Shown here: positions 9,635 to 46,038 of the stretch, one piece after another
Layout of the letters: every line of letters starts with the position of its first letter
How positions within the stretch are numbered: position 1 is the first letter of the stretch
Source: Acidobacteriaceae bacterium
GTDB taxonomy: Bacteria; Acidobacteriota; Terriglobia; Terriglobales; Acidobacteriaceae
Direction: 5' to 3'
Assembly: GCA_035944135.1 (NCBI GenBank)
Contig: DASZBM010000001.1
Location: 248,001 to 312,000 of the forward strand
DNA: 64,000 nt
The notes under the pieces: model-generated
The model's input: only the letters and a program-made list of their open reading frames with translations
Databases searched by the model: none
What the model was told of the DNA's origin: nothing
Translations under genes and position numbers: made by a program

Positions 9635-10843
9635 GTGAGCCCTAACACCACCTCCCGCTTCATCCGCGCCTGCCTTCGCCAGCCCGTCGACCGCACGCCC
9701 GTCTGGTTTCTCCGCCAGGCCGGCCGGTACATGCCCGAGTACATGGCGGTCCGCAAGCACCACTCGCTCCTCGAAATCTGCCGCACCCCCTCCATCGCCG
9801 CGGAAGTCACCATCACCGCCGCCGAACGCCTCGGCGTCGACGCCGCCATCATCTTCGCCGACCTCCTGCTCCCCCTCACCCCCATGGGCCTCGACTTCGA
9901 GTTCGTGAACGGCGAAGGCCCCGTCATCCACCAGCCCCTCCGCACACTCGACCAGATTCGCGCCCTCCGCACCGACCGCACGCAAGAGCTCAGCTACGTC
10001 GCCGAAGCCATTACCCGCGTCGCCACTCACTTCAACAACAAGCGCCCTGCTTCTTCCGATCCGGCCGAGTCGATGGACACCCTCGGCATCATCGGCTTCT
10101 GCGGCGCGCCCTTCACCCTCGCCAGCTACATGATCGAAGGCGGCAGTTCCCGGAACTACATCGAGACCAAAAAACTCATGTACGCCTGCGGGACGGCCAC
10201 AAATCCGGGTGCCCCACATCTCGATTCTGAGATGTGGGCTCGCGCTGGAGACGCGAGTTGGCCGCTCCTCATGGACAAGCTCCTCACCGTCCTCACCGAT
10301 TTCGCCGCCCAACAAGTCGCCGCCGGCGCCGACGTCATCCAGGTCTTCGACTCCTGGGCCGGCGCGCTCTCCGTCCCCGACTACCGCGCCTACGCGCTCG
10401 CCCCCACCACCGAGCTCATCCGCCGCATCCAGGCCCTCGGCGTCCCCGTCATCTACTTCGGCGTCGACACCGCCAGCCTCCTCCCCACCTTCCGCGAGCT
10501 CGGCGCCGACGTCATCGGTCTCGACTGGCGCATCCCGCTCGACGCCGGCTGGCGCGCCCTCGGCCTCCGCCCCGACGGCACCGCACCCACCGCCGTCCAG
10601 GGCAACCTCGACCCCATCACCCTCTTCGCCCCCGACGCCATCCTCGAAGCCCGCGTCCTCGAAATCCTCTCTCTCGCCGCCGGCCGCCCCGGCCACATCT
10701 TCAACCTCGGCCACGGCATCGTCCCCAACACCCCCGTCGACTCCGTCCTCCGCGTCGTCGACCTCATCAAGCGCCACGGCCAACAATCCGGGTGCCCCAC
10801 CCTCGACGCGCAAAGCGCAGCAGGGTGGGGTGTCGCGCGTTAA
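9635..10843 (+). CDS. hemE: Uroporphyrinogen decarboxylase, with repeat-derived insertions
   Basis: Converts uroporphyrinogen III to coproporphyrinogen III in heme synthesis. GTG start. Conserved features: PVWFLRQAGRYMPEY (residues about 22-36, substrate-binding arginines), IIFADLLLPLTPMG, GFCGAPFTLASYMIEGGSSRNY, VIQVFDSWAGALS, and the C-terminal FNLGHGIVPNTPV. At 402 aa it is about 45 longer than usual. The excess is two copies of palindromic repeat family A: one in frame at about residues 189-208, where homologues run directly from a KLMY-like to a LMDKL-like segment, and one forming the last 18 or so residues and the stop codon. Whether the enzyme tolerates the internal insertion is unknown, but the frame is intact throughout. 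Confidence 0.93.
   Translation: MSPNTTSRFIRACLRQPVDRTPVWFLRQAGRYMPEYMAVRKHHSLLEICRTPSIAAEVTITAAERLGVDAAIIFADLLLPLTPMGLDFEFVNGEGPVIHQPLRTLDQIRALRTDRTQELSYVAEAITRVATHFNNKRPASSDPAESMDTLGIIGFCGAPFTLASYMIEGGSSRNYIETKKLMYACGTATNPGAPHLDSEMWARAGDASWPLLMDKLLTVLTDFAAQQVAAGADVIQVFDSWAGALSVPDYRAYALAPTTELIRRIQALGVPVIYFGVDTASLLPTFRELGADVIGLDWRIPLDAGWRALGLRPDGTAPTAVQGNLDPITLFAPDAILEARVLEILSLAAGRPGHIFNLGHGIVPNTPVDSVLRVVDLIKRHGQQSGCPTLDAQSAAGWGVAR
10202..10257. repeat. Palindromic repeat family A, copy 1, inside hemE
   Basis: CCGGGTGCCCCA head at 10205, then a perfect 10-bp stem (CCCACATCTC / GAGATGTGGG, six-base loop), then a second stem CTCGCG / CGCGAG. The two-hairpin layout matches the other family A copies. 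It is in frame with hemE. Confidence 0.8.
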
Positions 10844-10853
10844 GACGCGCGAG
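10788..10853. repeat. Palindromic repeat family A, copy 2, containing the hemE stop codon
   Basis: Head CCGGGTGCCCCA, first stem CCCACCCT...AGGGTGGG, second stem TCGCGCGT-TAA-GACGCGCGA. The hemE stop TAA (10841-10843) lies in the loop of the second hairpin. No T-run follows, so it is not a typical intrinsic terminator. Confidence 0.82.
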
Positions 10854-10890
10854 TCGGCTCCCGCCCGACACGCGTGTTGTAATAGCTCCG

Positions 10891-11124: not shown

Positions 11125-11155
11125 GCCACCAGCGACTGGGCCATCCGCGCCTAAG

Positions 11156-11208
11156 CCGGGTGCCCCATTCATGACGACAGTTTCACCGTCGTCATGAGTG
11201 GGGTTCCA
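11156..11208. repeat. Palindromic repeat family A, copy 3
   Basis: Head CCGGGTGCCCCA with a long stem CATGACGAC / GTCGTCATG and closing GTGGGG. It is intergenic, just past the end of the convergent cupin gene, and nearly the same as copy 5 at 12973-13013. Confidence 0.82.
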
Positions 11209-11216
11209 ACGCCCCC

Positions 11217-11778: not shown

Positions 11779-12369
11779 GTGATCGAGGAACTCAGTTTGG
11801 TCTTGCCATACTCCCGGCCCGCCGAGACAGACACCTCGCTCGCCGCGCTCGTCGAGACTTATTCCACGCTCCTCTTCCGCGTCGCCCACTCCATCCTCCG
11901 CAACCCCACCGAGGCCGAAGACATCGTGCAGGACGCCTTCGTCCGCGTCATGGAACACCGCCGCGCGCTCCCCGAAATCCGCGACCTCCGCGTCTGGCTC
12001 GTGCGCATCACCTGGAACCTCGCGCTCGACCGCCGCCGCCGCATCCGCCCCGATCAGCTCGACGACACCTTCGCGCTCTCACTCATCGGTCGCAACACGC
12101 CCGCCGACATCGCCCTCGACGAATCCCGCGAACTCGCCTGCGTCTTCCACGAGATCGACCGACTCCCGCGCGCCGAGCGCCAGGTCCTCCTGCTCTCCGC
12201 CATCGACGAGCTCGACACCCGCGAGCTCGCCCAAGTCCTCAACAAATCCGAATCCGCTATCCGCGCCCTCATCTTCCGAGCCCGCACCCGCCTTCGCCAA
12301 CGGCTCCAGAAGAACGACGCCCGCCTCGAGAAGAATCAAGCCCGCCTCACGAAAGGAGGCCGCCCATGA
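11779..12369 (+). CDS. ECF-type RNA polymerase sigma factor
   Basis: Alternative sigma factor, 196 aa, GTG start. Region 2 is at about residues 25-95 (LLFRVAHSILRNPTEAEDIVQDAFVRV, then LRVWLVRITWNLALDRRRR). Region 4 is at about 130-180 (LPRAERQVLLLSAIDELDTRELAQVLNKSESAIRALIFRARTRL), with the helix-turn-helix of the -35 element reader. The stop overlaps the next start by ATGA (12366-12369), so it heads a three-gene operon with a membrane protein and a secretin-like exported protein. The pairing suggests an envelope-related regulon; its target is unknown. Confidence 0.93.
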   Translation: MIEELSLVLPYSRPAETDTSLAALVETYSTLLFRVAHSILRNPTEAEDIVQDAFVRVMEHRRALPEIRDLRVWLVRITWNLALDRRRRIRPDQLDDTFALSLIGRNTPADIALDESRELACVFHEIDRLPRAERQVLLLSAIDELDTRELAQVLNKSESAIRALIFRARTRLRQRLQKNDARLEKNQARLTKGGRP

Positions 12370-13259
12370 ACGCCAACTCGTCCCATGCCGCCTCTGACAC
12401 AATCGACAGCCGCATCGACCGCGCCCTCACCGGTCTGCGCGACGCCCAACCGCGCTCGGGCCTTAACAGCCGCATTCTCGCCGGGCTCGAGCACCGCTCC
12501 GCCGCGCACGCCACGAACCCGGGCGGCCCGTCCTTTCACGACTTCATCGTGAAAGGGTGGGGTATCGTTTGCGGTAGCAAACGAGAAAGCACGTTTCGCC
12601 CCACCCACGTCGCCCTCTGGGCCGCAACCTCCGCGGCCATCCTCGCCGTCGCCTCGCTGCTCGCGCTCCATCATTCCCACCCGAACAAATCTGCCGTCAT
12701 CCTGAGCGCAAATTCAAAGACCGTCATCCTGAGCGGAGCGCAACGCGCGCAGTCGAAGGCGGGGTTCCCAGCGAGCATTTTGTGCTCGATGGGGTGCAAG
12801 GACCCCGAGATCGCCAGCGTTACAACGAACACCAAACCCCTTTCCACCACGAACCTCGCGCAGACCGCCAGCACGTCTTCATCTCGACCTGGCCTTTCCA
12901 GCCGTCATCCTGAGCGAAGCGCAGCGGAGCGAAGGACCTCTGTATTTGGAAGCTGCCTAGACCACCACACCACCGGGTGCCCCATTCATGACGACGCAGT
13001 CGTCATGAGTGGGCCGACACAGGACCCCGACGCCCAGGCCCTCGCCGACCTCCACGCGCCCAGCCACCCCGCACCGCCACTCCCGCTCACTGCAGAGGAA
13101 AAGCTCTTCCTCCGCATGCTTCGCTACGGCAACGCCACGCAGCTCGCCGAGCTCAACCCCCTAGTCCGCGACAAAGAGGACGCCGACGAGACCGCCGCCT
13201 TCAAAGCCTTCTTCCCTGACCCTCCACCGCTCAAACAACCACTCGGAGACACCGAATGA
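12366..13259 (+). CDS. Putative membrane-anchored regulator after the ECF sigma factor, heavily invaded by repeats
   Basis: 297 aa, no recognised family. The N-terminus is short, polar and cytoplasm-like (SRIDRALTGLRDAQPRSGL). One membrane helix follows at about residues 79-101 (HVALWAATSAAILAVASLLA), and the C-terminus is a separate polar segment with LTAEEKLFLRMLRYGN. Position and topology suggest an anti-sigma partner, but no zinc (HxxxCxxC) motif is present. Residues about 51-73, 110-147, 180-192 and 203-216 are translations of dispersed repeats A and B, roughly a third of the protein. It overlaps the sigma gene and the secretin-like gene by 4 bases each. The frame is open, so it may still be expressed. 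Confidence 0.7.
   Translation: MNANSSHAASDTIDSRIDRALTGLRDAQPRSGLNSRILAGLEHRSAAHATNPGGPSFHDFIVKGWGIVCGSKRESTFRPTHVALWAATSAAILAVASLLALHHSHPNKSAVILSANSKTVILSGAQRAQSKAGFPASILCSMGCKDPEIASVTTNTKPLSTTNLAQTASTSSSRPGLSSRHPERSAAERRTSVFGSCLDHHTTGCPIHDDAVVMSGPTQDPDAQALADLHAPSHPAPPLPLTAEEKLFLRMLRYGNATQLAELNPLVRDKEDADETAAFKAFFPDPPPLKQPLGDTE
12518..12585. repeat. Palindromic repeat family A, copy 4, inside a coding region
   Basis: CCCGGGCGGCCC head, stem CCTTTCACGA / TCGTGAAAGG, GTGGGGT, then a second stem TCGTTTGC / GCAAACGA. It is the same two-hairpin plan as copies 2 and 6, with compensating differences in the second stem. Confidence 0.8.
12693..12804. repeat. GTCATCCTGAGCG repeats (family B, copies 1 and 2)
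   Basis: CCGTCATCCTGAGCG occurs at 12694 and again at 12721. The second copy continues with GGAGCGCAACGCGCGCAGTCG, a nested GAGCA...TGCTC hairpin, and GCAAGGACCCC. It lies in frame within 12366-13259. Confidence 0.72.
12902..12939. repeat. GTCATCCTGAGCGAAG repeat (family B, copy 3)
   Basis: CCGTCATCCTGAGCGAAGCGCAGCGGAGCGAAGGACCT, the most complete form of family B in the window, in frame within 12366-13259. Confidence 0.75.
12973..13013. repeat. Palindromic repeat family A, copy 5, inside a coding region
   Basis: CCGGGTGCCCCATTCATGACGAC, then GTCGTCATGAGTGGG. It is almost the same sequence as copy 3 at 11156, about 1.8 kb away, and in frame within 12366-13259. Confidence 0.82.
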
Positions 13260-14074
13260 ATCGCACTCTCAAACTGCTCGCAGTCGGCCTTATCGCCCTC
13301 ACCGTACCCGGCGCCGCGATCGCACAAAACAAACCCTCTGAAGCACAACCTGCTGAGCAAAAGCAGCCCGAAGCACGGCCGTCCCCGAGCGCCGTGCGCG
13401 ATGCGGAGGCTTACGAGGCCAACCGTGTTATCAAAACCTACTACCTCACCAACGTCACCCAACAGAACGATGCGAACGAGATTCTCATCGCCCTGCGCAA
13501 CGTGCTTTCACCCCGGGCCAAGATCTTTCTTGTCGCCTCGCAGAACGCGATCGTACTCGACGCTACCCCAGAAGATCAGGCAACCAGCCAGAAGGTCATC
13601 ACCGCTCTAGACCGCCCGCACAAGGCTTACCGCCTCACCTTCACCCTTGCCGAGTCTGACGCTGGCAAACGGATCGGCGTTCAGCATTTCGCCATGGTCG
13701 TCACCTCAGGACAGCGCACCGTCGTCAAGCAGGGCTCCAAAATTCCCGTCATCACCGGAACCTACAAAGCGGGCACCGAATCGCCTGAGACCCAGTTCCA
13801 GTACCTCGATATCGGCATGAATTTCGACGCGACGCTGGAAGACTCTCCCAGCGGCCTGCGCCTCAAGACCAAGGTAGAGCAGTCCGCCGTTGGTAGCCCA
13901 AGCGAGTACACCAACGGCTCCGGTCCCCTCGCGCAGGAACCCATCATCCACCAAACTTCCTTGGAAGGCTCTTCGATCATTAGCCTCGGCAAACCCCTCA
14001 CCCTCGGCTCCGTCGACGTCGCGGGCAGCACCCGCCACATCGACATCGAAGTCGTCGCCGAACCAATCTCCTGA
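13256..14074 (+). CDS. Exported secretin-like (STN/N0-type) protein
   Basis: 272 aa. Signal peptide at residues 1-23 (LLAVGLIALTVPGAAIAQ). Residues about 55-110 read as a small secretin-type domain: YYLTNVTQQNDANEILIALR, then IVLDATPEDQATSQKVITAL, the beta-alpha-beta fold seen in secretin N-domains. The C-terminal half (VVKQGSKIPVITGTYK, then QFQYLDIGMNFDATLE and LEGSSIISLGKPLTLGSVD) resembles a shortened secretin core region. It is too short to form an outer-membrane pore alone. Last gene of the sigma factor operon (ATGA overlap); a terminator follows. Function unknown. Confidence 0.75.
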   Translation: MNRTLKLLAVGLIALTVPGAAIAQNKPSEAQPAEQKQPEARPSPSAVRDAEAYEANRVIKTYYLTNVTQQNDANEILIALRNVLSPRAKIFLVASQNAIVLDATPEDQATSQKVITALDRPHKAYRLTFTLAESDAGKRIGVQHFAMVVTSGQRTVVKQGSKIPVITGTYKAGTESPETQFQYLDIGMNFDATLEDSPSGLRLKTKVEQSAVGSPSEYTNGSGPLAQEPIIHQTSLEGSSIISLGKPLTLGSVDVAGSTRHIDIEVVAEPIS

Positions 14075-45922: not shown

Positions 45923-45941
45923 CTCTCGCCCGACAACAAAT

Positions 45942-46002
45942 CCGGGTGGCCCATCCTTTCGCGAAGCGAAAGGGTGGGGTATCGCGCGTTAAGACGCGCG
46001 AG
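45942..46002. repeat. Palindromic repeat family A, copy 6
   Basis: CCGGGTGGCCCATCCTTTCGC, GCGAAAGGGTGGGGT, then the second stem TCGCGCGTTAAGACGCGCGA, identical to that in copy 2. Intergenic, before yggU. Confidence 0.85.
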
Positions 46003-46038
46003 AAAAGCGCTGTACGATGTCCATCGGCTACACGCGAA

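Follow-up and report, generated by a model that had tools for sequence, protein, structure and literature searches.

We found, in a sigma-factor operon of an Acidobacteriaceae bacterium, a gene in which short palindromic elements cover 340 of the 891 coding nucleotides (38%) and touch 116 of the 297 codons. The explanation that we hold to be very probable is that REP-like elements, those of family A most likely moved by a RAYT transposase, inserted repeatedly, and that the copies seen today are the in-frame survivors in permissive linkers, which left a protein that is 38% repeat-derived. The gene lies in the window (the whole stretch of DNA that was analysed, 64,000 nucleotides), and we call it the middle gene after its place in the operon:

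11779-12369, plus strand: ECF sigma factor gene, 196 aa (ORF; Pfam Sigma70_r2, E 4.2e-16, and Sigma70_r4_2, E 9.9e-13)
12366-13259, plus strand: middle gene, the subject of the main finding, coding for an orphan protein of 297 aa with one hydrophobic segment (ORF; orthologues)
13256-14074, plus strand: secretin-like gene, 272 aa (ORF; weak Secretin_N and Secretin matches under the cutoff; orthologues)

Both junctions of the middle gene have the sequence ATGA, in which its start overlaps the stop of the sigma gene and its stop overlaps the start of the secretin-like gene. An in-frame start candidate is placed likewise, over the sigma stop, in 22 of the 23 syntenic orthologues. Given the overlaps at both junctions and their counterparts in the orthologues, translation of the operon genes is probably coupled. 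Neither of the ORFs flanking the middle gene, sigma or secretin-like, is interrupted, and the ECF sigma factor is 51-66% identical to 19 orthologues. Searches with the middle-gene protein up to E 1 gave no family in Pfam or NCBIfam, and no relative under E 0.5 was found among solved structures; ten members of the orthologue set gave only scattered weak matches to Pfam (best E 0.0069). One feature of anti-sigma factors, a known domain, is absent at the same threshold (Pfam and NCBIfam, up to E 1). Another is present: the gene adjoins an ECF sigma gene and is coupled to it by the ATGA overlap, in an order kept in 23 of the 31 other loci. There is a hydrophobic stretch in the alignment, and a low-confidence structure model has a helix at residues 80-103. 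This model, made from three sequences, is poor (pTM 0.18), with pLDDT mostly below 50 at residues 43-84 and 101-220 and from about 56 to 81 in the tail blocks. The low values give a faint hint that the linkers may be disordered, faint because the other two input sequences lack most of the residues concerned.

Three families of elements recur in the 4.43-Mb genome. Family A consists of AATCCGGGTGCCCCA, a hairpin, TGGG(G) and, in the long forms, a second hairpin. Family B starts with GTCATCCTGAGCG, continues with a copy-specific stretch that is palindromic in many copies, and has one of two endings: AGTCGAAGGACCCCGA and a tail in type I, or GAAGGACCTCTGTATT in type II. Family C is the palindrome GGGGTCCCCGGCGAGC...GCTCGCTGGGGTG. 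The A core is found at 71 places with at most 2 mismatches (control, 1), some of which lack a hairpin and are probably chance matches; the B core is found at 39 places with at most 1 mismatch (control, 0). Scanning covered the stretches round pattern matches, so that decayed copies elsewhere were missed, and gave 65 non-redundant HMM matches to A and 107 clusters of A, B and C elements. The 32 copies of B type I (L087-L146) have fixed flanks and stem sequences that differ between copies; 12 of the copies have a stem of a length reached by at most 5% of shuffles, and 20 do not. A known RNA family was sought for the elements and rejected, as no Rfam match reached the gathering score within the window. 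Two of the A copies in the window lie between genes or far from the operon:

11148-11209, plus strand: A element between hemE and the sigma gene, outside the operon (HMM E 3e-14)
45935-46008, plus strand: A element in another part of the window (HMM E 5.4e-13)

To delimit the elements of the middle gene we masked the gene itself and built profile HMMs on the other copies in the genome (56 A, 32 B type I, 10 B type II and 7 C). The E-values within this gene are stated for a 1-kb search.

12507-12585, plus strand: family A no. 1, long form with two hairpins, aa 48-74, in the linker from the head to the hydrophobic segment (E 6.6e-11)
12694-12710, plus strand: partial family B head, in a double-head arrangement (E 7e-4 with the B1 model and 7e-5 with B2)
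12721-12759, plus strand: family B type I, first part (E 3.1e-9, model positions 1-48)
12760-12797, plus strand: family C palindrome nested in B type I (match 12760-12801, E 1e-6)
12798-12856, plus strand: family B type I, second part (E 9e-10, model positions 45-103)
12902-12949, plus strand: family B type II, aa 179-195 (E 2.3e-12)
12963-13022, plus strand: family A no. 2, one hairpin, aa 200-219 (E 5.2e-11; arms 12981-12995 and 12999-13013)

The match to B type I ends at model position 48, C comes next, and B resumes at position 45, which makes C an element inside an element. Double B heads resembling the arrangement at 12694-12710 also occur at L087, L095, L100 and L111. The inverted arms in the gene are 87-93% complementary, and the best match of A no. 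1 among the compared A copies is one beside an intact RAYT gene (91% over 68 nt). All elements lie in two linkers: the one from head to helix holds A no. 1, and the one from helix to tail holds the remainder. Only 14 nt separate B type II from A no. 2, and B-A neighbour pairs like this one are present elsewhere in the genome, so the separate insertion events may be as few as three. At 107 clusters per 4.43 Mb, about 0.02 clusters would be expected by chance in 894 bases; this expectation rests on a lower-bound rate, because the scan was limited to pattern-match stretches, and elements also tend to cluster. Read by eye, B type II is in a different frame from the first B, and A no. 2 in a different frame from A no. 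1. This excludes one fixed peptide per element, which a selected module would need.

The initial annotation, made from the sequence of the window, had described much of this arrangement. Its placing of the gene between an ECF sigma factor and a secretin-like protein agrees with the Pfam sigma domains and with the weak, under-cutoff Secretin and Secretin_N matches, and its two family A elements were recovered by the HMMs with the E-values given above. It had counted three family B elements, two of which stand; the third is the partial head, and the nested C had been missed. Its claim that the insertions keep the frame is supported by the conserved tail, which is in frame behind the inserts, and by the ATGA overlaps at both ends. 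The repeat-derived share, put at about one third, was roughly right if slightly low, and the length without repeats, put at some 200 aa, comes down to about 181 aa once the touched codons are removed.

We compared the gene with its orthologues in 32 loci, including its own. Sigma factor and middle gene were both identified in 24; the other eight (L010, L014-L017, L047, L048 and L051), where a search for the sigma motif gave nothing, were omitted from the counts. Two of the latter, L048 and L051 (genomes G100 and G121), have hemE directly before the secretin-like gene and no sigma gene by motif. In the alignment of the 24 proteins, head (IDxxLxxLR...R) and tail (PLTxQE...FxxFF) are conserved, a single hydrophobic segment lies between them, and the linkers are poorly conserved. 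Head and tail are in frame and conserved in the 23 syntenic orthologues, which belong to the same bacterial family. The orthologues are 196-301 aa long (median 243, with lengths as called; the starts of L039 and L042 were probably called too far downstream), and five of the 23 have at least 287 aa. One of these five (G108) has an element and the other four (296-301 aa) have no recognisable one, three of them (G114, G116 and G117) in genomes with at most one exact A or B core. Length alone therefore proves no insertion, and long linkers also arise without A or B elements.

The same HMMs detected elements in 5 of the 23 orthologous middle genes, in the linkers beside the membrane helix, and none in the other 18:

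G031: B element (HMM E 2.8e-9)
G122: A element (HMM E 1.6e-8)
G108: B type II element (HMM E 6.7e-8)
G112: B type II element (HMM E 8.8e-6)
G034: weak B element (HMM E 0.0033), with an exact B core at that place (C6:232737-232753)

Three further element sites, in the loci of G102, G109 and G123, are all outside the middle gene. The middle gene thus holds 5 of the 8 sites in 21% of the orthologous-locus sequence, a modest enrichment compared with the remainder of these loci (p 0.012; 0.037 if G034 is left out). Pairs from the same genus differ in both insert and element load: in one pair the insert is present in G031 (151 exact B cores) and absent from G095 (6), and in the other it is present in G034 (119) and absent from G098 (17). 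Insert-bearing genomes are richer in B cores (Mann-Whitney p 0.03, 6 vs 18, genomes taken as independent). The two B-richest genomes, G102 (345 cores) and G103 (237), have no element in the middle gene. A scan with the sigma alignment, of which the best 80 loci were listed, gave 75 remote loci from many phyla and 5 that are closely related to the operon and have the labels Acidobacteria, Terriglobus and Granulicella. Among these listed close relatives, L147 duplicates G052, L148 has a middle gene without element, L150 has one with an element, and no middle gene was found in L149 and L151. The insert of L150 is B-like (E 2.6e-4) and lies in the same linker as that of G034, from which it differs at 11 of 60 bases; over the whole gene, 241 of 624 bases differ.

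These comparisons bear on the remaining claims of the initial annotation. It had proposed that syntenic orthologues be compared by length as a check on insertion, which fails on the four long element-free proteins, and it had named conserved sequence across the repeat-like parts as evidence against its reading, which is not seen in the alignment with the 23 orthologues. Tolerance of insertions by the linkers is borne out by the position of the elements between conserved blocks and by the elements that other species have of their own; the linkers may also be flexible, as it suggested, to judge by their poor conservation and the low-confidence model. As for the repeats being a possible source of new protein sequence, this is seen at the level of the gene only.

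Elements also lie in frame in unrelated genes of this genome. The hosts are HemE, LysRS, RecR, ClpB, a vitamin B12-dependent ribonucleotide reductase and the YoaA helicase, and each of the six proteins scores over its curated NCBIfam cutoff. Three other hosts, a glycosyltransferase-like, an arabinofuranosidase-like and a sulfatase-modifying-factor/BNR protein, are less certain.

9635-10843 of the window, plus strand: hemE with two A elements (internal and C-terminal copies by HMM)
L098:1978-2054: element in RecR
L135:2064-2145: element in ClpB (antisense A)
L142:15219-15268: element in the ribonucleotide reductase
L143:1991-2059: element in YoaA

The internal A element of hemE is in frame, with its core at 10202 and an HMM match restricted to 10196-10217 (E 7e-4), and the second (10780-10858, E 1.4e-9) supplies the C-terminus of HemE. 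The internal element gives HemE an extra segment of about 20 aa, which is missing from the HemE of L048 and L051. When ORFs running through elements were tested by codon usage, 8 of the 106 clusters of A, B and C passed and 98 did not, which undercounts the genic copies since the test missed both hemE and the middle gene. In LysRS, the loop between the RYVDLI and KRA motifs contains an A or B element in 5 of the 10 readable genomes of the genus (G000, G103, G122, G107 and G100; loci L229:2583-2696, L230:2058-2150, L231:2114-2191, L233:2156-2246 and L249:2022-2074). The loop of G120 is a 36-residue version only, and those of G112, G121, G101 and G125 are long and have no element match. Thirteen further LysRS-bearing genomes, five of which have element matches somewhere in the locus, were left out as the site was unreadable by pattern.

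Family A is associated with a transposase. The genome has two Y1-type transposase genes. The intact one, a RAYT gene at L104:2249-2716 (NF047646, 104.8 bits vs a cutoff of 80), has A copies on both sides. The second, also a RAYT gene (L256, G000:C10:482545-482925), has an in-frame TGA and no A or B within 400 nt. We examined 30 RAYT loci of the genus, from a longer list of matches, and found A within 400 nt in 10 of them (about 0.5 expected), on both sides in 8; B was found within this distance in none of the 30, and 20 had neither. Among genomes with at least 3 exact A cores, 15 have a RAYT over the cutoff and 3 do not; the numbers are 2 and 8 for the other genomes (Fisher p 0.003, genomes taken as independent). 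G106, a 74% complete genome in which no RAYT turned up, is rich in A, and so are G107 and G108, whose RAYT matches are all under the cutoff; G121 and G116 have a RAYT over the cutoff and at most one exact A core. Family A thus shares with REPs and REPtrons the short palindrome, the many dispersed copies and the RAYT gene flanked by the repeat, and flanking of a RAYT gene is the feature that family B lacks. This association at the loci, together with the published REPtrons, makes mobilisation of family A by RAYT most likely. We found no mover of families B and C.

These observations suggest the following scenario. The middle gene would code for a poorly conserved membrane protein of the sigma-factor operon, whose two linkers, from head to helix and from helix to tail, would accept nearly any sequence that is free of stops and keeps the frame. 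REP-like palindromic mobile elements would insert across the genome, with RAYT acting in trans on the hairpins of family A, and most insertions in genes would be lost. The survivors would be in-frame insertions in loose linkers or loops, kept where they cost nothing. Repeated insertion, including that of one element into another, would then have made 38% of the protein repeat-derived. The elements, their families, the intact frame, the recurrence among orthologues and the association of A with RAYT are observations; the mode of transposition, the translation of these segments and the neutrality of the linkers are what we infer.

It is quite unlikely, in our opinion, that the repeat-coded segments have been put to use, i.e., that the linkers of the middle gene (and the LysRS loop) gained a function and selection keeps them. 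The same loops are indeed occupied in several species, but one place is filled by different families in different frames, each of A and B occurs in two reading frames within this gene, and 18 of the 23 orthologues do without an element. The likeness of the G034 and L150 inserts (11/60 against 241/624 for the whole gene), which retention by selection would explain, could also be two insertions of one family. One frame is used, by eye, in 9 of the 11 readable sense-strand genic copies of A, yet that frame, frame 1, is open more often than the other two in any case (stop-free in 45 of 64 copies, against 39 for frame 3 and 34 for frame 2).

These open frames also bear on another view, that the gene proper is shorter or defunct: the length of the ORF would be an accident of G+C-rich DNA, and the inserts would have put an end to the gene's function. 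Chance-open frames are frequent in the DNA of the window, that of the middle gene is open for 500 codons from stop to stop, and A is free of stops in 34-45 of 64 copies depending on the sense frame. We nevertheless regard this as very unlikely, for both conserved ends share one frame across five element stretches, the stop and start overlaps are preserved on either side, and neither the sigma nor the secretin-like ORF is broken. It is extremely unlikely that the elements are RNA-level regulators, hairpins that tune the downstream gene and are only incidentally in coding sequence. A and B are palindromic, and the long stems of 12 of the 32 B type I copies, with varied sequences between fixed flanks, are what such hairpins might look like (the other 20 are not long by this measure). 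Against this, the window has no Rfam match at gathering score, 18 of the 23 orthologous genes have no element, and unrelated genes are hit at unrelated positions.

Beyond insertion and in-frame survival in permissive linkers, which we prefer, one may imagine that in these acidobacteria mobile palindromes continually furnish protein segments, that the same permissive loops (the middle-gene linkers and the LysRS loop) are reseeded by different families, and that some of these segments are useful by now. This wider proposal is speculative and, taken as a whole, unlikely. Since element load varies widely, from 0 to 345 exact B cores across 28 related genomes, a comparison of strains can now address the long-standing question of whether genes merely tolerate mobile DNA or draw useful protein sequence from it.

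The Rickettsia palindromic elements (RPE) were reportedly described by Ogata et al. in 2000 and 2002. Excerpts of PMC10969869 present them as palindromic repeats lying in frame in unrelated genes whose products are apparently still made. Our elements resemble the RPE so described, being in-frame palindromes in unrelated, intact genes, here those of HemE, LysRS, RecR, ClpB, ribonucleotide reductase and YoaA. They come from another phylum and, by description, belong to other repeat families; unlike RPE as these excerpts portray them, they have accumulated in one gene from several families, with nesting, and family A goes with a RAYT transposase. Excerpts of PMC3733652 report GTAG/CGTC REPs inside ORFs of several bacteria, with some genes struck repeatedly, clusters coding for 43-82 aa, and recB of two Xanthomonas bearing REPs at roughly one site. 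They already propose linkers and loops as harmless REP sites, and describe acidobacterial tyrosine transposases with terminal inverted repeats (TIR/TIRYT elements). The likeness lies in REPs inside ORFs and in repeated strikes on one gene; the 116 codons touched in a single 297-codon gene are more than in those clusters, and these excerpts name neither families A, B and C nor the middle gene. According to the part of PMC6006769 at hand, REPtrons, or TnpA-REP systems, consist of a Y1 HuH transposase gene with repeats on both sides, and some tnpA-REP genes hold in-frame REPs. Family A, on both sides of a Y1 RAYT gene, resembles this arrangement, from which family B, associated with RAYT in 0 of 30 loci, departs. 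Among the open-licence papers listed by searches for such elements in Acidobacteria, no title or abstract opening described A, B or C, and the hotspots did not turn up in our literature searches either. Granulicella aggregans is listed in a table of a survey of REP sequences (PMC12306157, seen as an excerpt) and, given this table and the acidobacterial transposases of PMC3733652, part of the finding may already be on record in another form.

In-frame insertion of palindromic elements is thus a known kind of event, and our results extend insertion of the REP/RPE type to an acidobacterial family. The case is strong: repeats make up 38% of one protein, elements are nested, genomes of one genus differ in whether they have the insert, and elements fill one loop of an essential enzyme in several species. 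What they add to the known systems is the families themselves, the extent of insertion in one gene and the hotspots across species.
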